Position numbers and translations under genes: made by a program
The notes under the pieces: model-generated
Databases searched by the model: none
Told to the model about the DNA's origin: nothing
The model's input: only the letters and a program-made list of their open reading frames with translations
Origin: Sphingobium sp.
Lineage (GTDB): Bacteria > Pseudomonadota > Alphaproteobacteria > Sphingomonadales > Sphingomonadaceae
DNA: 42,641 nt
NCBI GenBank assembly: GCA_023266635.1
Contig: JAHFPU010000222.1
Location: 1 to 42,641, forward strand
Reading direction: 5' to 3'
In this document: positions 3-22,324 of the stretch, in pieces
How positions within the stretch are numbered: position 1 is the first letter of the stretch
How the letters are laid out: the number at the start of each line of letters is the position of its first letter

Positions 3-449
3 CGGCTGGGCATCGATTATTCCGGCTTCCTCGACAACCAACTGACCGACGACTGGAACTACGACATCTTCCCCAACATCCAGATGGGCATCCATCCGGA
101 GGGCGTGAGCATGCTCTATTTCCGTCCCCATGCGACGGACCCGCGCAAGTTCGTGTTCGACGTGATCGTCATGATGCATCCGCAGGAAAATCCCGAAATC
201 CTGCCGCCTGCCTATATGGGCCTGCCGGAAGGATGGGACATTAGTGGCAAGGAACCGGCGCAGGTCCAGCATATCGACTGGCGCGAAGGCGGCCTTGGCG
301 AGGTGTTCGATCAGGACAGCGGCCTGTTCGCCGAAGTCCAGCGCGGTATCGAAAGCCTGGGCTTCCGCGGATCGATCCTGTCCGAGCAGGAACAGCGCAT
401 CGGCCATTTCCATGCCGAACTCGATCGTTACATCAACGCCGCCCACTGA
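3..449 (+). CDS. Rieske aromatic-ring-hydroxylating-type oxygenase alpha subunit, C-terminal part (truncated by window start)
   Basis: Open frame from base 3 to TGA at 447-449. C-terminus (GIHPEGVSMLYFRPHATDPRKFVFD...GLGEVFDQDSG...GFRGSILSEQEQRIGHFHAELD) aligns by eye with the C-termini of the two full Rieske proteins downstream. Confidence 0.85.
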   Translation, partial: RLGIDYSGFLDNQLTDDWNYDIFPNIQMGIHPEGVSMLYFRPHATDPRKFVFDVIVMMHPQENPEILPPAYMGLPEGWDISGKEPAQVQHIDWREGGLGEVFDQDSGLFAEVQRGIESLGFRGSILSEQEQRIGHFHAELDRYINAAH

Positions 450-477: not shown

Positions 478-2601
478 ATGCTTTCCCCGTCCCGCCGCGC
501 CACGCTCGCGGCCGTCTCTCTGCTTGCCCTGCCCTTGTCGGCCTGCACGTCCGGTCCTGCTGCCCCTGAAAACGGGACAGAGGCAAAAGATGCCGGGCCG
601 TCCGGATGGCAGGCGCAACTGACCGACGGCAGCGACGGGCGGGACTGGCCGGCATTCGGCCGCACCTATGGGGAACAGCATTATAGTCCTCTGGATCAGG
701 TCAATACCAACACGGTCAAGCGGCTGGGTCTGGCGTGGTCGCTGGATTTGCCTGCGGGCAATCCAGCGACGGGCCCAATCGAGGTCGATGGCATATTATA
801 TTTCGCATCCGGCTACAGCATCGCCCATGCCGTCGACGTGCGCACCGGCAAGTTGCTTTGGACCTTCGATCCCAAGGCGCCAGAGGCGGCCGGCCACAAA
901 TTGCGCCAGGGTTGGGGCAGCCGCGGCATCGCCTACTGGAACGGCAAGGTCTATATCGGCACGCAGGACGGCCGTCTGATCGCGATCGATGCGAAGACGG
1001 GCAAGGTCGTGTGGTCGACCATGACCATGGGCAAGGACGATCTGCGCTTCATCAGCGGACCGCCCCGCGCCTTCGACGGCATGGTCATCATCGGCAATGG
1101 CGGCGCGGACGAGGCGGCCATCCGGGGCTACGCGACCGCTTATGACGCGGAAACCGGTAAGCAGATATGGCGCTTCTACACCGTTCCGGGCAATCCAAAG
1201 GACGGCTTCGAGAACAAGGCCATGGAGATGGCCGCAAAGACCTGGTCGGGCGAATGGTGGAAATATGGCGGCGGCGGCACGGTGTGGAACGCCATCACCT
1301 ATGACAAGGAAAGCGACACGATATACCTCGGCACCGGCAACGGATCGCCCTGGAACCGCAAAATCCGGAGCGAGGGCAAGGGCGACAATCTCTTCCTCTG
1401 TTCGATCGTCGCCGTGAACGCCAAGACCGGCGAATATAAATGGCATTACCAGATCAATCCCGGCGAAAGCTGGGACTATAATGCGGCGATGGATATGCAA
1501 TTGGCTGACCTGTCGATCGACGGGAAGCCGCGCAAGGTCCTGATGACGGCACCCAAGAACGGCTTCTTCTATGTCATCGACCGCACCACCGGAAAGCTGA
1601 TCTCCGCCAAGCCCTTCGTCACCACGACCTGGGCCAAGAGCATAGATATCAAGAGCGGACGTCCGGTTGAGGAACCCAATGTCCGCTATGAAGATGGGCC
1701 GGTGACCTTCAAGCCAAGCCCGGCGGGCGCGCATAGCTGGACGCCGATGGCGTTCAGCCCGAAGAGCGGGCTCGTCTACATCCCGGCCATCGACCTGGAA
1801 GTCACCTATGACGATAAGGGTATCACGAAGGAGAACTGGAAGCGCACGCCCGGCATGGCGCTCGATTATGGCGTCAATGTCGTGGTGCAGCCCTCCAAGG
1901 GCGCGAATATCTTAAGCTATCTCGTGGCGTGGGACCCGGTGACGCAAAAGGAGGCGTGGCGTCTGCCTACGCCGGGCCATTTTAACGGCGGCCTGATGGC
2001 GACCGGCGGCGGACTGGTGTTCCAGGGGCATCCCGACTCCTCCTTCACCGCCTATGACGCGAAAAATGGCGGCGTCGCGTGGAATTTCGATGCGAAGGCG
2101 CCGGTCGTCGCACCACCCATCACCTACTCCGTCGACGGCAAGCAATATGTGACCGTCATCGCCGGCATGGGGACCAGCGCAGGCCTGTTCGGGCCCCTCC
2201 TCGCCAAGTTCGGCATCGATTATCGCACCCAGACCCGCCGCGTGCTGACCTTCGTCCTCGACGGCAAGGCGACGCTACCGGCGAAGGTACCCTACAAGCC
2301 CCAGGCTGTAGACGATCCTGACTTCAAGGCGAACACCACGGCGGCCAAGGCTGGCGAAAACATCTTCAACGTGCGTTGCGCCGTATGCCATGGCGGCGGC
2401 GCGATCGCAGGCGGCACGGCACCCGACCTGCGTACGTCGGGTGCGATCCTGTCGGCGGATGCGATCTCCGCGATCGTGCATGACGGAGCGCTCGTGCCTA
2501 ACGGAATGCCGCGCTTCGAAGAGCTTAGCACTGAGGATCGGGAGAATATCCGGCAGTATCTGCGCACGCGGGCCGATGATCTGCGCAAGGGGCGACCGTA
2601 G
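478..2601 (+). CDS. PQQ-dependent dehydrogenase with C-terminal cytochrome c domain, predicted lipoprotein
   Basis: Beta-propeller repeats (AYDAETGKQIWRFYTVPG, DRTTGKLISAKPF), heme motif CAVCH, lipobox LSAC after MLSPSRRATLAAVSLLALP. Start placed at ATG 478 rather than the upstream 244 of the ORF track. Confidence 0.9.
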   Translation: MLSPSRRATLAAVSLLALPLSACTSGPAAPENGTEAKDAGPSGWQAQLTDGSDGRDWPAFGRTYGEQHYSPLDQVNTNTVKRLGLAWSLDLPAGNPATGPIEVDGILYFASGYSIAHAVDVRTGKLLWTFDPKAPEAAGHKLRQGWGSRGIAYWNGKVYIGTQDGRLIAIDAKTGKVVWSTMTMGKDDLRFISGPPRAFDGMVIIGNGGADEAAIRGYATAYDAETGKQIWRFYTVPGNPKDGFENKAMEMAAKTWSGEWWKYGGGGTVWNAITYDKESDTIYLGTGNGSPWNRKIRSEGKGDNLFLCSIVAVNAKTGEYKWHYQINPGESWDYNAAMDMQLADLSIDGKPRKVLMTAPKNGFFYVIDRTTGKLISAKPFVTTTWAKSIDIKSGRPVEEPNVRYEDGPVTFKPSPAGAHSWTPMAFSPKSGLVYIPAIDLEVTYDDKGITKENWKRTPGMALDYGVNVVVQPSKGANILSYLVAWDPVTQKEAWRLPTPGHFNGGLMATGGGLVFQGHPDSSFTAYDAKNGGVAWNFDAKAPVVAPPITYSVDGKQYVTVIAGMGTSAGLFGPLLAKFGIDYRTQTRRVLTFVLDGKATLPAKVPYKPQAVDDPDFKANTTAAKAGENIFNVRCAVCHGGGAIAGGTAPDLRTSGAILSADAISAIVHDGALVPNGMPRFEELSTEDRENIRQYLRTRADDLRKGRP

Positions 2602-2732: not shown

Positions 2733-3266
2733 CTATATTTTCCGCACCGGGTCCTTGCCGTCCCAGTTACGCGCCGTTGCCTTGATGCCGTCGAACAACT
2801 CAGTCATCGCCGGAGAGACTTCGATCAGTTCGACCATCGTGCCGGGAAACAGCACATCGGTATCAAGGTAGGAGAAGCGCGAAATGGGCAGTTGTCCTTC
2901 GGCGGCGACGCTGATGCCTGCCGCCCGCGCTGCAGCCATTTGCGCATCATAATCCGTGGCCACGGTGCCAAGGTGATGGACGCCCCGCCGCCCGGCATCC
3001 AGGAACTCGCGATAGGTCGACGGATCGCGCCCCGGCTGGATGATCTCGATCATCGTGTCGCCACTGTAGGACAGGGCCGCGGCGCCCAGGAAATCATAGT
3101 CGGGACCGACTCGTTCCCCCCGCACCTCAAACCACTCCGTCTGTAACGGCACGGGGAACATGAAGAATGGGCCAACCCCCATCGTCTTGACCATATGATC
3201 GATCGCCGACTCCACATCTTCGACGACATAAGCGATCTGAAATACCGGTCCGAATAGCTGACTCAT
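2733..3266 (-). CDS. VOC (glyoxalase/bleomycin resistance/dioxygenase) superfamily protein
   Basis: MSQLFGPVFQIAYVVEDVESAIDHMVKTMGVGPFF...HHLGTVATDYDAQMAAARAAG; methylmalonyl-CoA-epimerase-like VOC pattern. Start at ATG 3266. Confidence 0.8.
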   Translation of the reverse strand: MSQLFGPVFQIAYVVEDVESAIDHMVKTMGVGPFFMFPVPLQTEWFEVRGERVGPDYDFLGAAALSYSGDTMIEIIQPGRDPSTYREFLDAGRRGVHHLGTVATDYDAQMAAARAAGISVAAEGQLPISRFSYLDTDVLFPGTMVELIEVSPAMTELFDGIKATARNWDGKDPVRKI

Positions 3267-3332
3267 TGCCTGATCCTCTCTTGCAGACCTGTTTTTTGCG
3301 CAACCCATGGCGGATCGTGCGAATCTGCTTGC

Positions 3333-3352
3333 AAAACAATCATGCATGTTTT
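3333..3352. promoter_or_regulatory. Putative operator copy 1, AAAACAATCATGCATGTTTT
   Basis: Palindromic (AAAACA-N8-TGTTTT). 19/20 identical on the opposite strand to 7016-7035. Lies between divergent VOC and Rieske genes. Confidence 0.65.
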
Positions 3353-3421
3353 TTTATTGGTGTCGATCCGCATGAAGACGGAAATCATCCAACCCGGGAT
3401 GAACATCATGGAGAGCTGGAA

Positions 3422-4780
3422 ATGAAGTTCGACTTCAATCTGTGGGATATCCACATTGGCACGCCGCATCCGTTCAACGATCGCGCACCCGTCATCGACA
3501 ATGGAACCGCGCGGCCGACCGGCGCGCGCTATCACGACAAAGCATTTGCCGCCGCCGAGTGGGAGAAGGTCTTCGCCCGCAGCTGGCTGGTCGCCTGTCC
3601 CGTTTCCGACGTGCGCGAACCGGGCGACTTCGCCAAGTTCGACATCGGGCCGGAGAGCTTCATCATCGTCCATGGCGACGATGGCCAGATCCATGCCCAT
3701 TACAATGTCTGCCCGCATCGCGGCAGCCAGATCGTCCAGGCCGACACCGGCAGCGTCGGCAAGTTCACCTGCCCCTTCCACAGCTGGCAATTCAGCCTGG
3801 AGGGCGAGAACCTGGCCGTGACCGATCCGGAGACGTTCCGACCGGAAGTCCTGTGCCACGACCACAATATGACGTCCGTCCGCTGTGAAGTGGCCGCTGG
3901 CCTCGTGTTCATTTCCATGGACCCGCATATCGAGCCGCTCAAGCAATGGCTGGCTCCCGTTCTTAAGCATCTCGAGCTGTACGAAATCGACAAGATGAAC
4001 GTCGTCCAGCATCGTCAGTCGGACTGGGGCTCCAACTGGAAAGGCGGCGTCGACGCCTTCGCGGAAATCTATCATCTTCACGCCGTGCATCCGCAGACTC
4101 AGTGCCTGATGGATGACCGCACGCAGATCGACCTGTATCCGGGCGGGATCAGCCGCCAGTTCGTGCCCTTTGCACAGCCCAGCCGGCGCTATGATGACCA
4201 GGAAAGCGTCAATCCGGGCATCGCCATGATGCTGCAGGATGCTGGCATCGACCCGGCCAGCTATGATGGCACCGCGCACGAAACTCGCGCGGCGGTCCAG
4301 CAGGCCAAGCGCGAGCGGTCCGAGAAATATGGCCTTGGCTACGAGAAGTTCAGCGACACGCAGCTGAGCGATTCCACGGTCTATGGCCTGTTCCCCAACG
4401 CGCAGATCGGTTGCCATCCGGAGGCTGTATTCCTGCACCGTTTCGTGCCGCACGCCACCGACCCCAACCAGTTCACCTATGACACCTGCATTCTCTACCG
4501 GCACATCGACGCGCCTGGTTATTGCGCGCCGGCATGGATGGGCTTGGGTGACGAGATTGACCTGACGGGCCGGACCCGCCCCGACATCGTCCATACCGGT
4601 CTTGGTGAGCCTCCCGGCCTTGGCGAGGTTCTGGATCAGGACAGCGACCTGCTGCCGATCGTGCAGGCCGGCGCCCGTTCACGCGGCTTCCGAGGTCCGC
4701 TGTGGAGTGAGCAGGAAGCAAGGCTACGCCATTTCCATGTCGAACTGGACAAGCGCATGGCACAGGGAGACGACGCGTGA
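3422..4780 (+). CDS. Rieske non-heme iron oxygenase alpha subunit
   Basis: Rieske motif CPHRG...CPFHSW (CxH-x17-CxxH); mononuclear iron motif EIYHLHAVH; start MKFDFNLWDI at 3422. Confidence 0.93.
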   Translation: MKFDFNLWDIHIGTPHPFNDRAPVIDNGTARPTGARYHDKAFAAAEWEKVFARSWLVACPVSDVREPGDFAKFDIGPESFIIVHGDDGQIHAHYNVCPHRGSQIVQADTGSVGKFTCPFHSWQFSLEGENLAVTDPETFRPEVLCHDHNMTSVRCEVAAGLVFISMDPHIEPLKQWLAPVLKHLELYEIDKMNVVQHRQSDWGSNWKGGVDAFAEIYHLHAVHPQTQCLMDDRTQIDLYPGGISRQFVPFAQPSRRYDDQESVNPGIAMMLQDAGIDPASYDGTAHETRAAVQQAKRERSEKYGLGYEKFSDTQLSDSTVYGLFPNAQIGCHPEAVFLHRFVPHATDPNQFTYDTCILYRHIDAPGYCAPAWMGLGDEIDLTGRTRPDIVHTGLGEPPGLGEVLDQDSDLLPIVQAGARSRGFRGPLWSEQEARLRHFHVELDKRMAQGDDA

Positions 4781-6129
4781 ATTACGATCCACGCAGTTGG
4801 GCGGTCCATAAGGACAGCAAGCATCCCTTCGATACGCCTGCTCCCTATGTCGATAATGGATCGGCCCGGCCGGATCCGGCCCGCTATAGCGATCCGGCTT
4901 TCGCCGAGGCGGAATGGGAGAAGGTGTTTACGCAGACCTGGCTGCTCGCCGGGCCGTCGAGCGACGTGCGTGAATCCGGTGACTGGATGCGGTTCGACAT
5001 CGGCGTCGAATCCTTCATCATCGTGCGCAAGGATGATGGCGCGCTTGCCGCCCATTATAATGTATGCCCGCATCGCGGTAGCCGACTGGTGATGGACGAT
5101 GTCGGATCGCAGGGCAGCTTTTCCTGCCCATTTCACAGCTGGAAGTTCGATCTGGACGGCAGCAATCTGGCAGTTACCGACCCGGAAACCTTCCGGCCGG
5201 AAGTATTGTGCCACGATATCAATCTGTCGTCCGTGCGGGTCGAGGAGGAAGCGGGTCTCGTCTTCATTTCGATGACCGACGACGTCCCGCCCCTGAAAGA
5301 CTATCTCGGCACGATCCTGCCGATGCTGGAAACATACGAGATCGACAAAATGCATGTCGTGCAGCATCGCCGGTCGGACTGGGCGGCGAACTGGAAGGGC
5401 GGGATCGACGCTTTCTATGAAAGCTATCACCTCCATGCCATCCATCCGCAGACGATGGGCATGCTGGACGATCGCACCCATATCGACCTGTTCGAAAATG
5501 GCATGAGCCGCCAGTTCGTGCCGTTCGGCCAGCCCAACTCGCATTTCCCGGACCAGCAGGGAATCAATCCGGGCATCGCCGTGATGCTCGACGATGCAGG
5601 TCTGGACGCCGAGACGTTTCAGGGCACCGCCTATGAAAGCCGTTCGGCGATCGCGATGGCGAAGCGCGATCGTGCGGCGAAGCTGGGCATCGACTATGAC
5701 AGGTTCAGCGACGCCCAGTTGACGGACGCGACGATTTTCGGCGTATTCCCCAATGCGCAGGTAGGCTGTCACCCGGAGGCGGTTTTCCTTCACCGGTTCA
5801 AGCCGCATGGCGACGATCCCGATCAGTTCACCTATGAAACCACGATCATGTATCGGCATATCGACGTGCCGGGCTATGGCGCGCCGCTGTGGATGGGCCT
5901 TGGCGACGATGTGGACCTGACCGGCGCGACCCGTCCGGAAGTCGTCCACACGCCCCTGGGCGTACCGCCGGGCATGGGCGAAGTGCTGGATCAGGATAGC
6001 GACTTGCTGCCGATCGTACAGGCCGGCGCGCATTCGCGCGGCTTCCGTGGCCCCCTATGGGGTGAGCAGGAGGCGCGGCTGCGCCATTTCCATGTCCATC
6101 TCGATCAATGGCTGGCTGACAAGAGGTAA
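4777..6129 (+). CDS. Rieske non-heme iron oxygenase alpha subunit, tandem paralogue
   Basis: CPHRGSRLV...CPFHSW and ESYHLHAIH motifs; GTG start overlaps the preceding stop (GTGA); closely similar to 3422-4780. Confidence 0.93.
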   Translation: MNYDPRSWAVHKDSKHPFDTPAPYVDNGSARPDPARYSDPAFAEAEWEKVFTQTWLLAGPSSDVRESGDWMRFDIGVESFIIVRKDDGALAAHYNVCPHRGSRLVMDDVGSQGSFSCPFHSWKFDLDGSNLAVTDPETFRPEVLCHDINLSSVRVEEEAGLVFISMTDDVPPLKDYLGTILPMLETYEIDKMHVVQHRRSDWAANWKGGIDAFYESYHLHAIHPQTMGMLDDRTHIDLFENGMSRQFVPFGQPNSHFPDQQGINPGIAVMLDDAGLDAETFQGTAYESRSAIAMAKRDRAAKLGIDYDRFSDAQLTDATIFGVFPNAQVGCHPEAVFLHRFKPHGDDPDQFTYETTIMYRHIDVPGYGAPLWMGLGDDVDLTGATRPEVVHTPLGVPPGMGEVLDQDSDLLPIVQAGAHSRGFRGPLWGEQEARLRHFHVHLDQWLADKR

Positions 6130-6136
6130 CCCCGAA

Positions 6137-6168
6137 GGGGGAGGCGGTCTATGCAGGCCGCCTCCCCC
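6137..6168. terminator. GC-rich hairpin between convergent genes
   Basis: gggggaggcgg (6137-6147) / ccgcctccccc (6158-6168), perfect 11-bp stem with 10-nt loop; no clear U-tract. Confidence 0.6.
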
Positions 6169-6174
6169 GCCCTG

Positions 6175-6933
6175 TCAGAACGGGCGGATCGTCACGCCAT
6201 TATCTACGACAAATTCCGCGCCCGTGACGAAGCGTGATTCATCAGACGCCAGGAACAGGATCATCGCCGCGACATCTTCCGGCGCGCCTGCCGTTCCAGG
6301 CGGCAGCACGCCTGCCGGGATCACATTGGGCTTGCCGGGGCGCCCCTCGGCCAATTGCACCATCGGCGTTTCGATGGAGCCGGGATGCACGGAATTGCAG
6401 CGGATCTTGTAGCCCTTCTCCTGGCACATCACGGCCACCGACTTGGTCATCGCACGCACCGCGCCCTTGGCGGCGGAATAGGCGAAGAAGATGGGGTAGC
6501 CCAGCAGCGCGCCGGTCGACGACATGTTGATGATGGAGCCGCCGTCATTCTTGTTCATCAGCGGAATCGCATGCTTGCATCCCAGGAAAACGCCGTCGCT
6601 CATGATCGCGTTGACCCAGCGATACTGTTCCAGCGTCGTATCCTCGACATCGGCATTCAGCACCACGCCAGCATTGTTCACCAAAACATCCAGCCGCCCG
6701 AACGTCTCGTCGATCGTCTTCATGACATCGATCCACGCCTCTTCGGAGGCGACATCGAGCGCGAGAGCGATGGCGCTGTTGCCGATCTGGTCGGCGACCT
6801 TCTGCGCCGTTTCCAGCTTCACATCGGTCACGACGACACGCGCGCCTTCGCGGGCCAGCGCCACGCAGTCCGCCGCGCCAAGGCCTGAACCTCCACCGGT
6901 CACCAATGCCACCTTGCCAGCCACTCGTCCCAT
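6175..6933 (-). CDS. Short-chain dehydrogenase/reductase (SDR)
   Basis: VTGGGSGLG NAD(P)-binding motif, NNAG, and YSAAKGAV catalytic YxxxK. Confidence 0.93.
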   Translation of the reverse strand: MGRVAGKVALVTGGGSGLGAADCVALAREGARVVVTDVKLETAQKVADQIGNSAIALALDVASEEAWIDVMKTIDETFGRLDVLVNNAGVVLNADVEDTTLEQYRWVNAIMSDGVFLGCKHAIPLMNKNDGGSIINMSSTGALLGYPIFFAYSAAKGAVRAMTKSVAVMCQEKGYKIRCNSVHPGSIETPMVQLAEGRPGKPNVIPAGVLPPGTAGAPEDVAAMILFLASDESRFVTGAEFVVDNGVTIRPF

Positions 6934-7015
6934 TCCACTCTCCTATTGTGGTCCGGCATTTGTCTTGCCGGAGCGTTCCCGCGCAACCTATCTCAACGAT
7001 GGCCACAGTCTATAT

Positions 7016-7035
7016 AAAACATGCACGATTGTTTT
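7016..7035. promoter_or_regulatory. Putative operator copy 2, AAAACATGCACGATTGTTTT
   Basis: Reverse complement of copy 1 with one mismatch; 83-102 nt upstream of the SDR start. Confidence 0.65.
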
Positions 7036-8132: not shown

Positions 8133-8783
8133 TTAGCCGATACGCGCTAGTATCTCGTCACTTTCCGGGCGATCCAGCCAGTCAGGGCTGACCTGTATCC
8201 ACTCCACGGTGCGACCGGGGCCAATCAGCAGTACGGTCGGCTGCGGCAGTTCCCATGTTCCGGTGCCAGTGACGTCGCCAATCCATCCCGCAGGCGGCGG
8301 TTCGGGCCGATCGTCCGGAACGAAGCTGATGCCAAGCGCGCGCGCAAGGCCGTTGCCGGGATCGCTCGCCACCGTGAAGGCAAGGTTATGGCGATCCTTG
8401 ATATCGCGCAGCTTGTCCGGCGTCTGCGGACTGACAGCGACCAGCCGAATGCTCCTGGCTTTCAGAGCCGGATAGAGCGTGCGATCATAATAAGGCAGCG
8501 CCAGATTGCAGGCAGGACATCCGGCGAAACGGAAGAAGACCAGCAAAGCCCGACTATCTGCAGTCAGGTCATCCAGACTGATGGCATCGCCATCCACATC
8601 CACAAGATCGAACGGCGGCAGGATATCGCCCGACTGAACCGTCGCCGACGGATCAAAGCGATCCGTCAGTGTTCGCCGCTGACCGGCATTTGCCGCAAGC
8701 TGCGCAGGCGACCAGGTCCGCTCCCGTTCTGCCTGAAGCTCCGCATACTGCCCCTTCAAGCTATCAATCGCTACTGTCGCCAT
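8133..8783 (-). CDS. AhpC/TSA-family peroxiredoxin-like (thioredoxin-fold) protein
   Basis: LLVFFRFAGCPACNLALPYYDR (CPAC) and VSPQTPDKLRDIKDRHNLAFTVASDPGNGLARALGI. Start at ATG 8783. Confidence 0.8.
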   Translation of the reverse strand: MATVAIDSLKGQYAELQAERERTWSPAQLAANAGQRRTLTDRFDPSATVQSGDILPPFDLVDVDGDAISLDDLTADSRALLVFFRFAGCPACNLALPYYDRTLYPALKARSIRLVAVSPQTPDKLRDIKDRHNLAFTVASDPGNGLARALGISFVPDDRPEPPPAGWIGDVTGTGTWELPQPTVLLIGPGRTVEWIQVSPDWLDRPESDEILARIG

Positions 8784-8828
8784 CGTAATCTCCTTATCGC
8801 GGCCGCCACGAACCTGCGGCACACGCAC

Positions 8829-10178
8829 TCATGCCGCCGCAAGCTGCTCGGTGGTCTCTCTTTTCCGGTTATCCGGGATCGTCAGCCCCAAGTTGCCACG
8901 CAGCGTACTGGCGTCATAATCCCGCCGGAACAGGCCCCGTTCCTGCAGGATGGGCACCACCTCAGCGACGAACCGGTTGAACTGTTCCGGGTGGCCGAGA
9001 TGGACATTCAGCCCATCAAGCGCGCGCCCCTCGAACCAGCGCTCTATCTCATTCGCGACGGTCTGTGCCGATCCGGTGAACGGACTACCCCGCCCCGCCC
9101 TTTGGCGTTCTACCGCCTCCCGCAGAGACAGACCCTCGGCAACTGCGGCTTCGGTAATCTTCTTTGCCTGCGTGTAGAAACTGTTCCGCGCATGTTCGAG
9201 CGCCTGAACCGGAAACGGCGCATCGACATCATATTGCCGAAAGTCGTGCCAGCCAAAGGCGCGTCCGAACTCGGCCAGCGCCTGATCGAAACTCTGGTCC
9301 AGCCGCCGGTATTTCAGCTCGATCGCCTTGGCGTCCTCGTCCGTATCGCCGACATAGACGAAGAAGCCCGGCAGGATAACGATGGACTCGGGATCACGCC
9401 CCAGACGCGCGGCGCGGCCTTTCAGGTCGGCATAAAATGCCTGTCCCTGCTCAATGTTGGCGGCATGCGTGAAAATGGCGTCCGCGATATTGGCGCCGAG
9501 GTCACGGCCCTGATCGCTATCGCCTGCCTGGAAGATGACCGGTTCGCCCTGAGGCGAGCGCTGGATGTTGAGCGGGCCGACGACCGAGAAGAATTCCCCT
9601 TCATGATCGAGCCGATGAAGCTTGCCGGCGTCCAGGAACTGCCCGGTTGCGCGGTCGCGCACCAATGCGCCATCCTCATAGGACCGCCACAGGCCGCGCG
9701 TGACGTCGAGAAACTCGACGGCGCGCCGATAGCGCGTGTCATAGTCGAAATGCTCAGGCTGGCTGAAGTTGCCCGCCGTGCCGGCGTCTCCGCTGGTGAC
9801 GACATTCCATCCCGCCCGGCCCTTGCTAATCAGGTCCAGAGAAGCGAACCGGCGCGCGAGACTGAAAGGGTCGTTGTAGGATGTCGTCAGCGTGCCAACG
9901 AGGCCAATGTTCTTCGTCGCCACCGCAAGCGCGGACAGCAGCGTCAGGGGTTCGAGCCGATTGAGATAATGCGGCGGCGAATGCGGCGTGATGAATTGGC
10001 TATCTACGATGAAAACCAGATCGAACTTGGCCGCTTCCGCCTGACGCACGATATCGATGTACCAGTCGATATTGACGCTCGCATCGACCGGAATATCGGT
10101 GTCGAGCCAACGATTGCTATCACCTGGCCCGCCGACACCGGTAGGCACAAGGCCGAGCTTGAGTTGACGCTTGGTCAC
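8829..10178 (-). CDS. Flavin-dependent (LLM-class) monooxygenase, NtaA/SnaA/DszA family
   Basis: LKLGLVPTGVGGPGDSNRWLD...AEAAKFDLVFIVDSQF...KGRAGWNVVTSGD...EHFDYDTRYRRAVEFLDVTRGLW...VIFQAGDSDQGRDLGA; GTG start at 10178. Confidence 0.88.
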   Translation of the reverse strand: MTKRQLKLGLVPTGVGGPGDSNRWLDTDIPVDASVNIDWYIDIVRQAEAAKFDLVFIVDSQFITPHSPPHYLNRLEPLTLLSALAVATKNIGLVGTLTTSYNDPFSLARRFASLDLISKGRAGWNVVTSGDAGTAGNFSQPEHFDYDTRYRRAVEFLDVTRGLWRSYEDGALVRDRATGQFLDAGKLHRLDHEGEFFSVVGPLNIQRSPQGEPVIFQAGDSDQGRDLGANIADAIFTHAANIEQGQAFYADLKGRAARLGRDPESIVILPGFFVYVGDTDEDAKAIELKYRRLDQSFDQALAEFGRAFGWHDFRQYDVDAPFPVQALEHARNSFYTQAKKITEAAVAEGLSLREAVERQRAGRGSPFTGSAQTVANEIERWFEGRALDGLNVHLGHPEQFNRFVAEVVPILQERGLFRRDYDASTLRGNLGLTIPDNRKRETTEQLAAA

Positions 10179-10194
10179 GATAATCCCCAAGCTG

Positions 10195-10989
10195 TCAGGC
10201 GTCGAAGCCGGGCGATTCCCGCCGCGCCTTGCGCAACGCCGCTTCCCAGACGAGGTCATAGTGAGACTTTGCGCCCTCGACCGGCTTGCGCTCACGGGAC
10301 ATCTGGCGACGCACTTCTTCCTGGGCTGCTTCCGGCGCGATCAGCACATTCTCCCGACCCACGCTCAAAGAGCGCACTTGCGCCGTACAGGCCGCTTCAA
10401 GATGATAGATGCCGCTAAACGCTTCGCCCGGTGATGCGCCAAGCGCCAGAGTGCCATGATTGCGCAGCAGCATGACCTTCGTATTGCCAAGATCGGCAAC
10501 CAGCCGCTCCCGCTCATCCAGGTTCAACGCCACGCCTTCATAATCATGATAGGAAAGACCGGGGATCAGGGCGAGCGCGCGCTGATTGAGCGGCAGCAAC
10601 CCTTCGGCATGGGCAGACACCGCCATGCCATCGGCGCTATGGAAATGGGCGATATAATGGGCGTCGTCTCGCGCGCCGTGGATCGCCGAGTGGATCACAT
10701 AGCCGGCATAGTTGATGCCATAGTCGCTCTCACCAATGACATTGCCGTCGAGGTCGACCTTGACCAAACTCGACGCGGTAATCTCGTCGAACATCAGGCC
10801 AAAGGGATTGATCAGGAAATGGTGATCCGGGCCGGGAAGCCGGGCGGAGATATGCGTGTAGAGAAAATCGTCCCAGCGATAGAGAGCCGAAAGGCGATAG
10901 AAGGCCGCCAGATCGACACGCGCTTTCCATTCCGCATCGCTGAAGCCCTGCGGCTCGGTCCTTACATCTTTCAGCACGGTTGCCATCAC
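10195..10989 (-). CDS. Class II aldolase/adducin family protein
   Basis: TAHISARLPGPDHHFLINP-type N-terminus (THISARLPG), HYIAHFHSADGMAVSA metal-ligand His, LLRNHGTLALG. Confidence 0.88.
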   Translation of the reverse strand: MMATVLKDVRTEPQGFSDAEWKARVDLAAFYRLSALYRWDDFLYTHISARLPGPDHHFLINPFGLMFDEITASSLVKVDLDGNVIGESDYGINYAGYVIHSAIHGARDDAHYIAHFHSADGMAVSAHAEGLLPLNQRALALIPGLSYHDYEGVALNLDERERLVADLGNTKVMLLRNHGTLALGASPGEAFSGIYHLEAACTAQVRSLSVGRENVLIAPEAAQEEVRRQMSRERKPVEGAKSHYDLVWEAALRKARRESPGFDA

Positions 10990-11068
10990 GATACTCCTTT
11001 GCGGGACAGTCTAGGGGTGCCGTAGCACGCCGAATAACGAGGATTTCTAATCAAGCGCCATATTCCGC

Positions 11069-12046
11069 TCATGCGGGAAACACGGTAGCGTCGGCGATAG
11101 CGGCGACATTAACATGCTTGGGCAATTCGCCATCCGCATAAAAGCGATCGACGACGCGCTGGAGCGGCGCAATGACCGCGTTGTCCGGTGGGACCAGCAA
11201 GGCGTTCTGCCGATCCACCATTATCTTGGCGACGCGTAGATCGACCTTGGTCTGGCGCACGAAGATTTCCGCATAGGTATCCGGGTTGGCGAGAGACCAC
11301 CGAGCCGCCGCCTGGAACCGGGCGAGAATATCGCGCAGCGCTGAACGCTTGTCGGGATCGTCCAGCGCTCCCTGCGACGCCGCAAGTAAACTGTAAGGGC
11401 TGTTGATCCCTTCTCCGTCGCGCACCAACCGCGCACCTGCCAGTTCCGCAGCGATCTGATAGGTGCCGAATGTCGCCCAAATGTCGATACGTCCGGCAGC
11501 GAAAGCCGCAGCGGCGTCATTCGGGAGCATGAAGCCGATATCCACCTTCTTGGGATCGACCTTGGCCTCTTTCAGCGCCTCAAGCAGCAGATAATGCGAG
11601 ATGCTGCCGCGTGCGCTGGACACGATGACGCGCTGGCCGGCAAGGTCGGCAACCTTCCGGACCGACGATCCCTGCCGGGCGAGAATGCCGATATTGCGTG
11701 TAGAGAATTTCATGCCCGCAATAATCTTGAGCGGCGCTCCGGCGGCGGCGGCCAGCACCACAGGAAGGTCGCCAGCCGGGGCGGTATCCACAGCACCGGC
11801 ATTAAGCGCCTCGAGCAATGGCGCTGCGCCGACGAAATTCGCCCATTCAATGTCATAGGGCAGGTTCTTCAGGACGCCCGCAGCTTCCGCCTTGGATTGC
11901 AGGAGATGGACCTGATCGCCAAGGACGAGCTTCGTCCGCCCGCCCTTCTTTGCGCCGCAGGCGGCAAGGCCGAACGCAGGGATTGCCAGTGCGGCAATCC
12001 CTGCGAGCACGCCTCGACGGTTAGAAATCAAGTGCGATCCGTCCAT
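11069..12046 (-). CDS. ABC transporter substrate-binding lipoprotein, SsuA/aliphatic sulfonate-like (SBP 1)
   Basis: Lipobox GLAACG; PLLEALNAGAVDTAPAGDLPVVLAAAAGAPLKIIAG; DLAGQRVIVSSARGSISHYLLLEAL; DIWATF. Start MDGSHLISNRR at 12046, overlapping the end of the receptor gene. Confidence 0.88.
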   Translation of the reverse strand: MDGSHLISNRRGVLAGIAALAIPAFGLAACGAKKGGRTKLVLGDQVHLLQSKAEAAGVLKNLPYDIEWANFVGAAPLLEALNAGAVDTAPAGDLPVVLAAAAGAPLKIIAGMKFSTRNIGILARQGSSVRKVADLAGQRVIVSSARGSISHYLLLEALKEAKVDPKKVDIGFMLPNDAAAAFAAGRIDIWATFGTYQIAAELAGARLVRDGEGINSPYSLLAASQGALDDPDKRSALRDILARFQAAARWSLANPDTYAEIFVRQTKVDLRVAKIMVDRQNALLVPPDNAVIAPLQRVVDRFYADGELPKHVNVAAIADATVFPA

Positions 12047-14585
12047 AATAATAACCGCCTGCGGGGTTGAAGGGCGACGGGCCGTAATAGCCCTGCCCGG
12101 TCTGTGGATTGCCCGGCCCGTTGGTTTCGGGCCGCACGTCGAACAGATTGGTCGCGCCGAAGGACACGGTTGCAAAGGACGTGACCTTCGCGCTGATGCT
12201 CGCGTCGGTGATCCATTTGGCACCGAAGTGACGATCGTCACCCGCCGCAGTCCGCTGCGTATATTTCCCGTAGCGGGTCGTGGTGACGGCAAAGCCCAAT
12301 ATGCCCTTGCTCCAGTTCAGTGTGCCGACCAGCTTGGTATGGGGTTGCAACACCTCAAGTTCACCTTGCTTATCACCGCCAAAGAAGACCGATCCCGCAC
12401 CGAGCAGGGAAGTCCCGTTTGCCGCAAACAGTTGCGACGGCGTATCGACAAGATCGGTGATATGGGTCTTGCTGTAGTTGAAAGCGAGCGTACCCCCTAG
12501 CTTGCCGAGCGCGCCGATATTGGTGCTGTAGTCCGCAACCAGATCGAACCCCTTGGTCGTGGTATCGACGGCATTGATGAAATACTCGGCCTGCTCGATG
12601 TCTGACAGACCATTCGCCGTGAGGATCGCCGTGATCCCCGGTCCGAACAGTCGGCCGGTGCGCGCCACACGGTTCTTGATGCGAATATAATAGCCATCGA
12701 GTGTAAGCGAGAAGCCCTGGAAAGGCGTCGCGACGACGCCCAGACCAGCGTTCCAGCTCTTCTCCGCCTTCAGCGGCTTCGCACCGAGCAGTTGTCCGAC
12801 CGTGGAATCCGCCGTCACCAGCTTGGCGACCGTCGGCCGCAACTCCGTAAGGCCCGTCGCCGCGTTGAAGAAGGACGATGTCCGTCCATCGGTCTGGGCA
12901 TAGCCGATCTGCGTCAGCGACGGCGCGCGGAAGCCTGTGCCTACCGTGCCGCGAAACGCAATGGCCGGGCTGACCTCAAAGCGGCTGTTGAGCTTCAGGC
13001 TGACCGGGCTGCCCGATCCGTCGCTATAATGTTCGGCGCGGGCCGCTACGCCGACATACCACTGGTCAAGCGGATACAGGCCGAGGTCGACATAGCCGGC
13101 ATAGACCCGTCGGCTGATGTCCGCCTCGTCGGCGGGCGACAGAACGATAGCGCCCTGCACCACCGGGGAAGCGATGCGACCGACGTTCCAGTCATATTGC
13201 TGGTCGCCGGGCCGGAACACATAGCTGGCCGGCTGATAGGCGAGCGGGTCGCCGGCAAAGGTGCGAAAACGGTCGAGCCGATATTCCGCGCCGATCGACA
13301 CCTGAACCGGACGAGCAAGGCCGATGTCGAACTGGCGTGTCAGGTCGACATTATGCGTCCATTCCCGGAACTCGAAACTGGCCAGGTTCGGCCATTGCGT
13401 CGGGCTAGTGGGGCCAAGCGATGGCCGGATCGACAAGTCAGAATATTGGTGGCTGTAGTTGCGGCCAAACGACGAACTCACGTCGTAATCCCAGCCGATA
13501 AGGGTGCCTTTTAGGCCGCCGACGAACTGGAAGTCATTCTCGTCGATATTGTTGAGGGGGTAATAGCCATCAGGAAAAAGCGCGGTGAAGTTGGCGGTGC
13601 TGTTGGGCCGGCGGAAGTTGTTGCCGATCACCGCCTTGCGTTCGCCATAGGTGCCGAACGAATAGAGGGTGGCGTTATCCGTCACTGGCAGTTCCGCATT
13701 ATAGGTGAGGTTGAACGCCTTGATCTGCGGGTCGCCATTATGCGCGCCGTCCTTGTTCCACGCCGCATTGCGGGCATTGGCGTCGGCGACGTTTGCCAGC
13801 ACCTGGGCGCGGGACAGTCCGCTGCGCGTCACGACCTGATCCACGGTAACGCCTGCGGGCAATCCGTACAGGTTGGTGTCGGTCGCGGGCAGGTTCCACC
13901 ATGCGCCGCCGCGCTTGCGGATATCACCGCTGACAGTCAGGAAACCGCCGTCGCCGATCCGCGTGCCGTAGCGCAGATTGGCCTTCCAGCTATCCGGCTT
14001 GCCATTGGCGCTGTAGAGGGTGCCGTATGTCGCGTCGCCGGAAATCCCCTCTTTCTGGCTCAACTGGATATTGATGACGCCGGCCACGGCGTCGGTGCCA
14101 TATTGGGCGGCCGCGGAATCCTTGAGGACCTCGATCCGGTCGATCGCGCTGGTCGGAATCAGGTCCAGATCAACAGGATTGACACCCGACGTGTCAGTGG
14201 GGCTGTTGTTGAGGAAAGCGCCATTGTGGCGGCGCTTTCCGTTGACCAACACCAATGTGTAAGCGGGGCCAAGGCCGCGATTGGTGACAGGCCGACCGAC
14301 CGAAAAGACCCCGGCATTGGTCGCGCCGAAATTTAGCGAGGGCAGCAATTTGGTCAGCGCTTCGCCGAATTCGGCAGCGCCGGTCCCCTGCAACTTGTCG
14401 GAACCGACGACGTCGATAGGGGCCGGGCTCTCCAGCACGGTGCGCGGCGTGCCGCGTACGCCCGTGACAATGATGGCGCCAGTATCGCCCGCGTCATCAA
14501 TCGGACCCGTTTGGGCATAGGATGACCCTGCCCAGGCGATCGCCAGTGCAAAAGTCGATATCCCTGCAATGCGATGATATTTCAT
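12021..14585 (-). CDS. TonB-dependent outer-membrane receptor
   Basis: Plug motifs (GAIIVTGVRGTPRTVLESPAPIDVV, YTLVLVNGKRRH, IDRIEVLKDSAAAQYGTDAVAGVINI) and terminal aromatic YYYGRIALDF. Confidence 0.95.
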   Translation of the reverse strand: MKYHRIAGISTFALAIAWAGSSYAQTGPIDDAGDTGAIIVTGVRGTPRTVLESPAPIDVVGSDKLQGTGAAEFGEALTKLLPSLNFGATNAGVFSVGRPVTNRGLGPAYTLVLVNGKRRHNGAFLNNSPTDTSGVNPVDLDLIPTSAIDRIEVLKDSAAAQYGTDAVAGVINIQLSQKEGISGDATYGTLYSANGKPDSWKANLRYGTRIGDGGFLTVSGDIRKRGGAWWNLPATDTNLYGLPAGVTVDQVVTRSGLSRAQVLANVADANARNAAWNKDGAHNGDPQIKAFNLTYNAELPVTDNATLYSFGTYGERKAVIGNNFRRPNSTANFTALFPDGYYPLNNIDENDFQFVGGLKGTLIGWDYDVSSSFGRNYSHQYSDLSIRPSLGPTSPTQWPNLASFEFREWTHNVDLTRQFDIGLARPVQVSIGAEYRLDRFRTFAGDPLAYQPASYVFRPGDQQYDWNVGRIASPVVQGAIVLSPADEADISRRVYAGYVDLGLYPLDQWYVGVAARAEHYSDGSGSPVSLKLNSRFEVSPAIAFRGTVGTGFRAPSLTQIGYAQTDGRTSSFFNAATGLTELRPTVAKLVTADSTVGQLLGAKPLKAEKSWNAGLGVVATPFQGFSLTLDGYYIRIKNRVARTGRLFGPGITAILTANGLSDIEQAEYFINAVDTTTKGFDLVADYSTNIGALGKLGGTLAFNYSKTHITDLVDTPSQLFAANGTSLLGAGSVFFGGDKQGELEVLQPHTKLVGTLNWSKGILGFAVTTTRYGKYTQRTAAGDDRHFGAKWITDASISAKVTSFATVSFGATNLFDVRPETNGPGNPQTGQGYYGPSPFNPAGGYYYGRIALDF

Positions 14586-14666
14586 GAATATTCCCCCAAT
14601 ATAATTGAAGGCTCTCCTAAGTTTTACATATGTATTGGAATAATGATTTAGGCATATTTCTGATGA

Positions 14667-14694
14667 GAAAATAAAAACTCTAATTTTTATTTTC
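14667..14694. repeat. AT-only inverted repeat in the SsuA-TonB receptor intergenic gap
   Basis: gaaaataaaaa-ctctaa-tttttattttc; perfect 11-bp arms (12 counting the flanking a/t at 14666/14695). Confidence 0.75.
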
Positions 14695-14716
14695 TTATCG
14701 AAACATTATCTATCTG

Positions 14717-15670
14717 CTATTCGGAAAATTGCCTGTCGAATGCCTCAGTAACGGAACGCTTGGGATCGATCAGGCCCGCCTTCTGAAAGCGCGCCGTGAT
14801 TTCCTGCTCATGCGCAATGACCTTGCCGTCGATGGGCTGAGAAATGCGATTGTTGCGATCGAAACTGGCGCGGGCGATGTCCAGCGGCAGGCCGGTCTCC
14901 TTCGCCAGAACCTGTGAAAATTCATCCGGATGCGCGCGCGCCCAGGCGACAGCCTTTGCCTCACGGGCAAGGAAGTCCTTCAAAATGGCCTTCTTCGGCG
15001 CAATCGTATCCGCATTGGCGATGTCGATATAGAGCGGAAGCCCGTAATCCTTGGCGTCGACCACAGCGAGCGCGCCTTCCTTGATCGCGACATTGGTATA
15101 GGGCGTCCAAGTCGACCAGGCATCGATCGCCCCGCTATCGAACGCAGCTTTCGCATCGCCGGGCGGAAGGAAGGTCACACGGACCGCACTTGCTGGAATA
15201 TGCGCGCGCTCGAGCGCCTGAAGCAGCAGATGATGACCGATCGAACCGCGCGTCGTGGCGACGGACTTGCCAACAAGGTCCTGCACGCCGCGGATCGGCG
15301 ATCCCTGCTTCACCAGCACTGCCAATGCGTCGGCGGCCTGATGCGCCGGAGCCTGGACCCCGATCGCCTTGACCGGACTGCCGCTCTGATAGGCGAAGAT
15401 GAAAGGCGCGTCAGCAGCGAGACCGAGGTCCGCTGCGCCACCGCCCACCGCCTCAAGCAGGGGCTGCGCCGCCGGGAACTCCGACCATTCGACCGTATAG
15501 GGCGCGCCCTTGAGCGCGCCCGAGGCCAGCATCATCGATTTGACCTGCCCCTTCTGATTGGCGACCCGCAGGACATTTTCAGGCCCGCGAAAGAGCCCCG
15601 AAGCGAATATCCCGATGCCCGTGACGCATACTGCCCCGACAACAATCTTCAGTACCGTCCGTCGCGTCAT
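14717..15670 (-). CDS. ssuA: ABC transporter substrate-binding protein, aliphatic sulfonate SsuA-like (SBP 2)
   Basis: PLLEAVGGGAADLGLAADAPFIFAYQSGSPVKAIG, DLVGKSVATTRGSIGHHLLLQAL, DAWSTWTPY; start overlaps the preceding stop (TAATG). Confidence 0.88.
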   Translation of the reverse strand: MTRRTVLKIVVGAVCVTGIGIFASGLFRGPENVLRVANQKGQVKSMMLASGALKGAPYTVEWSEFPAAQPLLEAVGGGAADLGLAADAPFIFAYQSGSPVKAIGVQAPAHQAADALAVLVKQGSPIRGVQDLVGKSVATTRGSIGHHLLLQALERAHIPASAVRVTFLPPGDAKAAFDSGAIDAWSTWTPYTNVAIKEGALAVVDAKDYGLPLYIDIANADTIAPKKAILKDFLAREAKAVAWARAHPDEFSQVLAKETGLPLDIARASFDRNNRISQPIDGKVIAHEQEITARFQKAGLIDPKRSVTEAFDRQFSE

Positions 15671-16758
15671 TAGCCAGCCAGCGCCAGTTGGGCTTCATCA
15701 CGCGCGGCGACCTTGCTGCGCACGACCGGCAGCAATTCGCGTCCGTACAGGATGCTGTCGCCCAGCGGATCGAAGCCGCGGATCAGGAAATGATCGATGC
15801 CGATATCATAATATTCCAGCATCGCGTCGGCCACCTGCTCGGGCGTGCCAACCAGACCGGTGCTGTTGCCCGCTGCGCCAGTCAGCGCAGCGACGCCGGT
15901 CCACAGGCGCGTATCGCGACGATTGCCCTGCGCGGTGTCGAGCAGACGCAGCGATCCGACATTGGCCGGGCGATGACCCGTGACGGGAAGCCCTGCGGCA
16001 AGACGATTCTCCCGCACCTGCTCCTCAATCTCGTCCGCCTTCTTCCAGGCCGCTTCCTCGGTATCGGCAATCACCGGACGCAAGGACAGCGAGAAGCCGG
16101 GATCACGGCCAAAGCGCGCCGCCGACCGGCGGACCTGGCGAACGGTCTCCCCGACCTGCTCCAGCGTTTCGCCCCACAGGGCATAGACGTCGGCGTGACG
16201 GCCCGCGACCTCGATCGCTTCTTCGGACGATCCGCCGAAGAAGACTGGCAGATTGTCCGGCTTGATGGCGCTGAAGCCTTGCTTCACGTCATAGAAGCGG
16301 CCCTGATGATCGAAGGGCTGCGCCTCGGTCCATTCCTGACGAAGCACGGTCAGATATTCGTCGGTGCGCGCATAGCGCTCAGCCTTGACGCTTTTCGTAT
16401 CACCGTCCCGCGCCATTTCCTCGTCGGCGCCGCCGGTAATGATATGCACGGCGACGCGGCCGCCGGACAGTTGATCAAGCGTTGCGAGCTGGCGCGCAGC
16501 CACCGTCGGCTGGGTGAAACCGGGACGATGCGCTACCAGAAAGCCGAGCTTGCTGGTGAGGGCTGCGGCATGCGCCGCGACGATCTGGCTTTCGGGAGTG
16601 TTTGATCCGAACGGGATCAGCACACGATCAAAGCCACCCTGCTCCTGCGCCTTTGCGGCCGCGTCGACATACTCCTTATCAAGTACCCGGCTGCGAACTG
16701 CCGACTGGGTTTCCGAACCATTGTTGAAGCCGATATAGCCGATGAACTTGACGCTCAT
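15670..16758 (-). CDS. ssuD: FMNH2-dependent alkanesulfonate monooxygenase-like (LLM class)
   Basis: IGFNNGSETQ, FDRVLIPFGSNTPESQIVAAHAAALTSKLGFLVAHRPGFTQPTVAARQLATLDQLSGGRVAVHIITGGADEEMARDGD, YDIGIDHFLIRGFDPLGDSILYGRELLP. Confidence 0.92.
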   Translation of the reverse strand: MSVKFIGYIGFNNGSETQSAVRSRVLDKEYVDAAAKAQEQGGFDRVLIPFGSNTPESQIVAAHAAALTSKLGFLVAHRPGFTQPTVAARQLATLDQLSGGRVAVHIITGGADEEMARDGDTKSVKAERYARTDEYLTVLRQEWTEAQPFDHQGRFYDVKQGFSAIKPDNLPVFFGGSSEEAIEVAGRHADVYALWGETLEQVGETVRQVRRSAARFGRDPGFSLSLRPVIADTEEAAWKKADEIEEQVRENRLAAGLPVTGHRPANVGSLRLLDTAQGNRRDTRLWTGVAALTGAAGNSTGLVGTPEQVADAMLEYYDIGIDHFLIRGFDPLGDSILYGRELLPVVRSKVAARDEAQLALAG

Positions 16759-16786
16759 GATGCGTCTCCTCTTTAAGAATTACTGA

Positions 16787-18049
16787 TCAGATGACGTAGA
16801 AGCCGTGGGTGCCGTCGCGGGCGAGCTGATCGACCAGCCCATATTCCCAATCGAGATAGGCCTGCATCGCCGCAGCCTTGTTGTCCGTGCCTTCATAGGG
16901 CCGCTTGTACCGCCCCTCGGGACCGCGCGGAGACGGCGCGCCATCGGAGCCGGTTGCAAGCGTCACCTGCGTCCAGTCGGCATCCAGTATCGACACATCC
17001 CAGCCAAGCTGGGCCAGCCAGGATGCCGTCATGTCCGCGCGCGGGCCAAGATCATCGGCAACGACGATCCGTGCGCCGCGCACCGGGGCATAATGGTCGG
17101 TCTCCTGCACCAGCTGCCCGCCCTGCGCATTCCGGAAGCCCGGAATGTGCCCAGCTTCATAAGCCTTTGGCTGGCGCACGTCGTAGAGATACAGGGTGCG
17201 GCCCGTATCGGCCTTCAGATGCTCCAGTTCCGCAAAGCCGATGCGCTTCACGCCGGCGCGATAGGATACGGCGCGCGCATTGCCGCGCGCCTCCTCGACC
17301 CCGGCATTGTCGACTTCCGGCGCGATGCGGGTCTGGCCGGTTTCCAGGTCCTGACCCGCCAGCGTCCAACCGATCGTGCCGTTGCGCAGCGCGTAGACCT
17401 TGTTCGGGATGCCCGCATTGACCAGCGACTGCGTGCCGATGATCGATCGCGTGCGCCCGGCGCAATTGACGATGATCGTGGTGTCCGGATCGGGCGCGAT
17501 CGCTCTGGCGCGGAGCACCAGTTCGGCCCCCGGAACGCTAGTCCCGGTGGGGATGCTCATCGTATTATATTCGTCGGTGCGCCGCGCATCCAATATAGCG
17601 ATGTCGGCTTTCTCGCGGATCAGCGCCTGCACCTCTTCGGCGGGGAGCGAAGGCGTGTGGTTGCGATGCTCGACCAGTTCGCCAAAGGCCTTAGAATAGC
17701 TGTTCACATCCTCGAACAGTTCGAAGCCGGCATCGCGCCATCCGGCAAGGCCGCCCTCCAGTTCGCTGACGTCCGTGAAGCCCAAAGCCAGAAGCCGCAC
17801 GGCCGCGCGCTCCGCAAGCCCTTCGCCATTATCGTACACGACGATCGGTGTCGCAATCCGGGGAATGCGCCAGCGCGCTTCATCGTCGATCCGGCGCAGC
17901 GGAATCTGCGCGGCGAAGAGCGGATGTCCCTGCGCGAATTCATGCTCTTCGCGCACATCGATGATCGCGATCTCGTCGCCGGCAAGCAGGGCCGTGCGGA
18001 TCGCGGCAGGTGTCGTCGTATGCGTGCGGTCGAGGGTATCCGTGATCAT
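16787..18049 (-). CDS. Multi-domain rhodanese-like sulfurtransferase
   Basis: Three rhodanese-like repeats (IIDVREEHEFAQGH; AILDARRTDEYNTMSIP with IIVNCAGRTRS; LYDVRQPKAYEAGHIPG); ATGA overlap with the upstream gene. Confidence 0.9.
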   Translation of the reverse strand: MITDTLDRTHTTTPAAIRTALLAGDEIAIIDVREEHEFAQGHPLFAAQIPLRRIDDEARWRIPRIATPIVVYDNGEGLAERAAVRLLALGFTDVSELEGGLAGWRDAGFELFEDVNSYSKAFGELVEHRNHTPSLPAEEVQALIREKADIAILDARRTDEYNTMSIPTGTSVPGAELVLRARAIAPDPDTTIIVNCAGRTRSIIGTQSLVNAGIPNKVYALRNGTIGWTLAGQDLETGQTRIAPEVDNAGVEEARGNARAVSYRAGVKRIGFAELEHLKADTGRTLYLYDVRQPKAYEAGHIPGFRNAQGGQLVQETDHYAPVRGARIVVADDLGPRADMTASWLAQLGWDVSILDADWTQVTLATGSDGAPSPRGPEGRYKRPYEGTDNKAAAMQAYLDWEYGLVDQLARDGTHGFYVI

Positions 18050-18654
18050 TTGGATCTGTCCCAAAGATTGGGGATGACGCTGTTCGCGTATCCGGAGATG
18101 AAGGGTTTTGGCGTGCCGTCCTCGGCAAAGGTCGCACGTTCGACCGCGCCGATATTGGCCCCATAGACGTGAATGCTGACCGACGGCGCGTCAGCGCGGC
18201 CGTTGGATACGCGGTGGATGTCGCCAGTGCGCGGGCTCAGCGCCTCGACAGCGCCCTCGTGAAGATAATCGGTCTCCGCCGCGACAAGCGCGCCGCCTGC
18301 GCCGCGCGTGAAACGCTCGACCTTCTCCTTGCCGCGCAAAATGCCGACCAGCCCCCACACGCGATGATCATGGATCGGCGTGGACTGGCCGGGCGCCCAG
18401 ACGAAGCTGACGATGCTGAACCGCTCGCGACTGTCGCAATGGAGGAGATATTGCTGGTAACGCTCCGGATTTGGGCGGGCAAACGCCTCGGGCAGCCAGT
18501 CGTCCTTGGCGATCAGCCGGGCGAGCAACGCGCTGCCCGATTCCAGGATCGAGCGCTCGTCGCGGGTGCCCGACAAGAGGTCGGCAAATGCTGTGATGAA
18601 CCCGCGCAGCCTTGATGTGTCGACAGGCCGGTCGATAGCGGTAATCGCGTTCAT
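18046..18654 (-). CDS. Cysteine dioxygenase type I family cupin (thiol dioxygenase-like)
   Basis: FSIVSFVWAPGQSTPIHDHRVWGLVGILRGKEKVERF (HxH cupin ligands) and GDIHRVSN third His. Confidence 0.9.
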   Translation of the reverse strand: MNAITAIDRPVDTSRLRGFITAFADLLSGTRDERSILESGSALLARLIAKDDWLPEAFARPNPERYQQYLLHCDSRERFSIVSFVWAPGQSTPIHDHRVWGLVGILRGKEKVERFTRGAGGALVAAETDYLHEGAVEALSPRTGDIHRVSNGRADAPSVSIHVYGANIGAVERATFAEDGTPKPFISGYANSVIPNLWDRSK

Positions 18655-21379: not shown

Positions 21380-22324
21380 TTAGTAGCCGCGCACCGGATC
21401 AACGATGTCGCTGGGGTCTTCTCCTCGCGTGAAGCGGGACAGGTCGTCCGTCACCTTGTCCAGCAGGCGATGACGCACCAGCGTATAATTGCTGGAGATA
21501 TGGGGCGTCAGGCGGACCTTGGGATGAGTATATAAGGGGTGACCTTCCGGCAGAGGTTCCGGCTCCGTGACATCCAGCGTCGCAAAGCCAAGCCGCCCAC
21601 TGTCCAGGGCACGGATCAGCGCCTCCTGATCGAGCACCGAACCGCGCGCCACATTGATGAGATGCGCGTCCGGCTTTGCATGCGACAGCAAAGCGTCATC
21701 GATCAGCAGGCGCGTCTGCGGTGTCGCAGGCAGGGCAACGACAATATGATCGGACTCGGCCATCAGTTCGCGGATGTCCGACACCAGCGATATGCCCGGA
21801 ATATGGCTCACTGTTGAAGAACGCCTGACACCCACGACCTGTGCGCCGAGGGCGATGGCTCGGCGACCGACGGCGTTACCGATCGCGCCGAGACCCAGGA
21901 TGCCGACGGTCGTGCCGGACACCCGACCAAGCGGCTTTTGCACCCATTGCTCACGCGACCGGGCGGTTACCGCCTCAAGATTCTTCGCATGGGCATAGAT
22001 GGCCGCGATGACATAGTCGGCAATCTCTTCCGACGCCACGCCTCGCCCGCACGTCACCAGCGGCGCTTCGAGCAGCCAGGGCGGGTAGAAATCTATCCCC
22101 GCCGAGGCGCTGTAAACCCATTTGAGCCGACCGGGCCAAGCCCCGGGGCGTCCTTGCGGCGACTGCCGCCAGGCCAGGGAAGGACGAATAAGCAGAACGT
22201 CCGCTTCACTCGCTGCGGCCCAGGGCTCTTCTTCCGAAACCGAAATCAGCCTTGGTCGAGATGGATGCTCTTCAAGGCTGCGGTTGAAATCGGGTTCCAT
22301 CTGGCTGGCAATGACAAGCGACAT
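21380..22324 (-). CDS. D-2-hydroxyacid dehydrogenase (NAD-binding)
   Basis: VGILGLGAIGNAVGRRAIALGAQVVGVRRS, INVARGSVLDQEALIRALDSGRLGFATLDVTEPEPLPEGHPLYTHPKVRLTPHIS. Confidence 0.92.
   Translation of the reverse strand: MSLVIASQMEPDFNRSLEEHPSRPRLISVSEEEPWAAASEADVLLIRPSLAWRQSPQGRPGAWPGRLKWVYSASAGIDFYPPWLLEAPLVTCGRGVASEEIADYVIAAIYAHAKNLEAVTARSREQWVQKPLGRVSGTTVGILGLGAIGNAVGRRAIALGAQVVGVRRSSTVSHIPGISLVSDIRELMAESDHIVVALPATPQTRLLIDDALLSHAKPDAHLINVARGSVLDQEALIRALDSGRLGFATLDVTEPEPLPEGHPLYTHPKVRLTPHISSNYTLVRHRLLDKVTDDLSRFTRGEDPSDIVDPVRGY

Follow-up and report, generated by a model that had tools for sequence, protein, structure and literature searches.

Genes and putative operators at the locus

The window, which is the whole stretch of DNA analysed (42,641 nucleotides, contig C237), belongs to a Sphingobium sp. 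genome of 3.0 Mb, assembled in 243 contigs and 78% complete. Its beginning carries the catabolic genes listed in Table 1, whose assignment to the Rieske, VOC and SDR families by an earlier note, made from the letters alone, agrees with Pfam. The two full-length Rieske genes are presumed to share one transcript; next to this tandem (3422-6129), the window showed no gene for a beta subunit, a ferredoxin or a reductase.

Table 1. Features of the window and the regulator gene on contig C4
Feature	Position	Strand	Remarks
Further Rieske oxygenase, 3' end only	3-449	+	truncated at the contig start
PQQ-dependent dehydrogenase with cytochrome c domain	478-2601	+	syntenic in L045 and RAC03; lacks its own operator in the window
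VOC-family protein (Glyoxalase_4)	2733-3266	-	putative target of operator 1, transcribed divergently; 28 genes of its cluster are preceded by an operator
Candidate Rieske promoter	3329-3357	+	TTGCAA (3329-3334), 17-bp spacer, TTTTAT (3352-3357)
Operator 1 (putative), AAAACAATCATGCATGTTTT	3333-3352	+	VOC/Rieske divergent intergenic region; motif score 35.2
Rieske oxygenase alpha subunit A	3422-4780	+	PF00355, PF00848; putative target of operator 1
Rieske oxygenase alpha subunit B	4777-6129	+	4-bp overlap with A; 67% identical to A
SDR oxidoreductase	6175-6933	-	putative target of operator 2; operator upstream of 8 genes of its cluster
Operator 2 (putative), AAAACAATCGTGCATGTTTT	7016-7035	-	5' of the SDR gene; motif score 31.4
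TetR protein, 222 aa	C4 28574-29239	+	TetR_N at C4:28682; also L083:6575-7243

Both 20-mers lie where the earlier note had placed them and are the sole matches with up to three mismatches in the window, 100 dinucleotide shuffles of which gave none. The distances proposed with them are also correct: operator 1 lies 67 bp from the VOC start (3266) and 70 bp from the Rieske start (3422), and operator 2 lies 83 bp 5' of the SDR start (6933). The symmetry that had been described as a dyad AAAACA-N8-TGTTTT is real, with 8 of 10 symmetric pairs in operator 1 and 7 of 10 in operator 2, but this description was too narrow: the motif common to the relatives, AAAACANTCATGANTGTTTT, is a 20-bp near-palindrome centred on CATG. 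The orientation of such a site carries little information, so that the argument drawn from the same orientation of both copies is weak. The view that both sites serve divergent promoters holds for operator 1, which has a conserved gene on either side; at operator 2 the SDR side alone is conserved. The rightward gene beside operator 2 (start 7201 or 7261) forms its own cluster among the loci and has no Pfam match.

Two other regions of the window are worth mentioning. The genes at 8133-18064 (minus strand), beside the regulon and devoid of operators, probably serve organosulfur use: they encode two luciferase-like monooxygenases and two NMT1-type binding proteins, as well as a rhodanese protein and a TonB receptor. 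A bacteriophytochrome with an HWE histidine kinase and a weak C-terminal response-regulator match is encoded at 26808-29387 (minus strand).

Conservation of the motif

A motif model of 20 bp, with overlap removal, was built from the window, contig C4 of the same genome and 75 Rieske loci, which had been retrieved in a search for relatives of the first Rieske protein. At equal threshold, 253 sites were found in 78 loci (1.18 Mb) and 2 in the reversed sequence; the model having been trained on the same loci, the fair tests are this reversed control and a search with a fixed pattern. All but four of the 253 sites are intergenic, though 85% of the DNA is coding (binomial p ~3e-197). An earlier model of 24 columns, refined in four rounds, was discarded, since it had drifted to shifted, AT-rich matches.

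A counterpart of operator 1 is found 5' of the Rieske gene in 49 of the 72 loci with sufficient upstream DNA. In a Novosphingobium group lacking this Rieske-proximal site, a pair of operators is followed by a TonB-receptor gene and then by the Rieske gene, and the pair appears to head an operon that includes the latter. Operator 2 is identical in Sphingobium phenoxybenzoativorans (L045:12020). The motif is thus kept in orthologous clusters, and the conservation is restricted to the operator and short promoter flanks. Both 20-mers are regarded as putative DNA-binding sites common to a widespread Sphingomonad degradation cluster.

In the genome of the window, the consensus occurs with up to three mismatches at six places, namely the two operators of the window and positions 15372, 17445, 28434 and 28529 of C4, without any stray match elsewhere; the same pattern read backwards gave none at this limit. 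The motif model adds two C4 sites, C4:33659 and C4:35237. Contig C4 carries more of the window's catabolic cluster. In an alignment to locus L084, the tail of C4 falls at 21881-23164 and the start of the window from 26756 onward; the two contigs probably adjoin across a gap that holds a TonB receptor. This split would explain why no regulator had been visible from the window.

Intact relatives give a continuous picture. In S. phenoxybenzoativorans SC_3, the genome from which locus L045 comes, the consensus was found with up to three mismatches at 14 places genome-wide, 11 of them at 61006-115742 of one contig and three elsewhere. The same contig carries a TetR protein gene (C4:74444 in the SC_3 numbering), 94% identical in its product to that of the present genome, and it combines with the 11 operators within 55 kb; the counterparts of both window sites are at 111616 and 115723. 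Plasmid pBSY17_1 of Sphingobium sp. RAC03 likewise displays 11 operators across 50 kb, all intergenic. Further RAC03 operators are found at a ferredoxin gene and at another TonB receptor (L084:33044 and 33756).

Extent and content of the proposed regulon

The idea that one regulator controls all the transcription units between 3333 and 7035 is strongly supported by the confinement of the sites to the window and C4 and by their retention in orthologous clusters. The proposed regulon stretches well past them. Putative targets that recur among the loci include the TonB receptor, with 44 genes, the TetR protein (30 of 38), SDRs, VOC proteins, an AMP-dependent ligase, a SnoaL-like protein and a second Rieske group. 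In S. phenoxybenzoativorans, the counterpart of the partial Rieske gene at the contig start is located 3' of a TonB-receptor gene preceded by an operator pair.

A steroid or bile-salt pathway was considered on two grounds: the clusters hold many SDRs together with a CoA-transferase, a SnoaL-like protein and a thiolase with a ChsH2-like OB protein, and locus L033 belongs to a MAG classified as Novosphingobium sp. Chol11. This substrate was not adopted. No KshA chain is named among the 33 matches of the Rieske protein to solved structures, the closest named relatives being a carnitine monooxygenase and ring-hydroxylating dioxygenases. Other regulators and other palindromes have been proposed for the bile-salt clusters of sphingomonads (PMC12882949). 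Lignin-dimer and terpenoid leads were also followed, with no matching cluster in the literature.

A TetR-type regulator encoded next to the sites

The earlier note had seen no obvious regulator in the window, and the putative operator-binding protein is most likely the TetR-type repressor encoded on C4. That this protein is a TetR-family member is established by sequence (PF00440, TetR_N, 43.3 bits against a cut-off of 24) and by predicted fold: the structure model of its orthologue in locus L074 (pLDDT 87.5) comprises ten helices and finds TetR-type regulators as its best fold matches, with the whole TetR fold covered for 3pas (Maqu_1417). A weak match of a TetR orthologue to TetR_C_31 stays under the cut-off. 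Orthologues, most of them 55-71% identical, are present in about 37 Rieske loci, about 30 of which have a site upstream of the gene, and their recognition-helix region (consensus AGLSRGAMxHHF) is almost invariant. Several loci with a TetR about 55-58% identical have no site directly 5' of its gene.

The C4 sites 28434 and 28529 lie directly 5' of the TetR gene, and two operators occupy the same position in SC_3 and RAC03. Among the recurrent gene clusters annotated, this TetR is the only regulator adjoining the sites. A scan of viral contigs for it yielded nothing useful.

The association was also followed in 151 genomes of the family with the fixed pattern AAAACANNCATGNNTGTTTT (up to one mismatch), TetR being counted at E values up to 1e-30. 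The motif is present in 11 of 11 genomes carrying TetR and in 4 of 140 without it (Fisher p 8.5e-14, uncorrected for phylogeny), the latter four having single or double matches; the reversed pattern gave none. The 11 genomes span 10 genera, and two genomes of the same genera lack TetR, Rieske gene and motif alike. Identical coordinates suggest that locus L007 derives from one of these genomes, G085. The Rieske orthologue occurs in the 11 TetR genomes and in one more, and the five plasmids with a Rieske orthologue at least 75% identical are exactly the five with TetR. The cluster is inherited or transferred as a whole, so that co-occurrence alone would fit any of its genes. The case for TetR rests on its being the regulator adjacent to the sites.

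Paralogues of the cluster TetR (46-56% identical) were observed in some of the same loci, at L029:15231-15878, L031:15844-16515 and L007:12200-12769; two of the three have an operator variant of their own, AAAGCATGCAAGCATGTTTT, and they are possibly a second regulator of a sub-branch.

Proposed mechanism and alternatives

Operator 1 fills the spacer of the candidate Rieske promoter. This context is conserved in 26 loci as CTTGcaAAACAaTCATG..TGTTTTTT.aT, and the flanks, CTTGca and TTTTTT.aT, look like -35 and -10 elements. The SDR operator appears to lie directly 5' of a TATATA-like sequence, with no clear -35 element in the promoter scan. The TonB-receptor promoters and several TetR promoters have paired sites, 77-128 bp apart.

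We infer that the 20-mers are operators of an autoregulated, ligand-released TetR repressor encoded on C4 and controlling a catabolic regulon, with a probability of about 0.87. The repressor, presumed to be a dimer, would bind AAAACANTCATGANTGTTTT in the promoters of a scattered regulon comprising its own gene, Rieske oxygenases, VOC, SDRs, an AMP-dependent acyl-CoA ligase, the TonB receptor, and SnoaL-like and TIM-barrel proteins. When bound to operator 1, it would shut down transcription from the Rieske promoter and probably also that of the divergent VOC gene. Binding of the substrate or a pathway intermediate, possibly a CoA thioester, would then release it, switching on the pathway together with the synthesis of the regulator itself. 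Repression rather than activation is suggested by the protein family and by the position of the site.

Could the sites belong to a different regulator, of another TetR, IclR or LysR type, the cluster TetR being just one of its targets? The genome of the window encodes 14 TetR_N proteins, and in some genomes a paralogue 46-61% identical to the cluster TetR occurs, so that the two might share sites. We consider this improbable, given the doubled operators directly 5' of the cluster TetR gene, the absence of any other regulator family recurring beside the sites, and the co-occurrence of motif and cluster TetR across genomes. The chances are equally slim that the cluster TetR does bind but activates, or acts as a dual regulator at the paired sites: a spacing of around 100 bp would fit cooperation or looping, but the site of the Rieske gene occupies the presumed -35/-10 spacer, and the TetR proteins studied are mostly repressors. 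As for a repeat without regulatory meaning, either a mobile or repetitive element or an AT-rich chance match, it could be invoked from the AT-rich flanks and the matches in a few TetR-negative genomes, but it is already refuted by the reversed controls, both in the loci and in the 151 genomes, by orthologous positions conserved in many genera and by a conservation limited to operator and short flanks; its probability is negligible.

Beyond the ligand-released TetR repressor itself, we would give even odds to a broader picture: an undescribed TetR family and its operator across Sphingomonadales, with weaker sites in distant MAGs, governing a multi-Rieske regulon in which the paired operators of TonB receptor and regulator act cooperatively and uptake is coupled to catabolism. 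The operator makes it possible to mark, from sequence alone, which scattered operons form one pathway across many Sphingomonads, and its analysis names a testable regulator. A reporter with one operator would be a handle for finding the substrate of this widespread multi-Rieske cluster, and possibly a new biosensor part.

Comparison with known systems

Open-access papers, also when searched for the operator sequence as text, yielded no account of this motif or regulon; subscription journals may contain such work. One of the closest parallels is EdcR of Caenibius tardaugens, a TetR repressor of oestradiol degradation with the operator TnnCnnTACnAnTnGTAnnGnnA (PMC8700777). Both are Sphingomonad TetR proteins associated with palindromic operators at several promoters of a single catabolic cluster, which in each case has a TonB receptor among its genes, and both are probably autoregulated. 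However, the EdcR operator is unrelated to AAAACANTCATGANTGTTTT, the cluster genes differ, and EdcR has a TetR_C_11 C-terminal domain, whereas the C4 protein matches TetR_N only. Phenanthrene degradation in Sphingobium sp. SHPJ-2 is repressed by PheR (PMC13273656). PheR is also a Sphingomonad repressor tying uptake to aromatic catabolism, but it is of the IclR family and its core motif is GCAACG.

KstR and KstR2 of mycobacteria are autoregulated TetR-family proteins that control many scattered operons for the catabolism of hydrophobic substrates, with an operator different from the present motif. They resemble the C4 protein in family, in its probable autoregulation and in the scattering of catabolic operons, and differ in phylum. 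A large regulon is attributed to KstR (PMC1995591). Among solved structures, the best sequence match is TtgR (E 4.9e-11, residues 30-136), in the DNA-binding domain, and the similarity does not run through the ligand domain. TtgR controls drug efflux. Maqu_1417 (3pas), the best fold match to the model of the TetR orthologue, is only 18% identical. The present system probably works like other autoregulated TetR repressors of catabolism.
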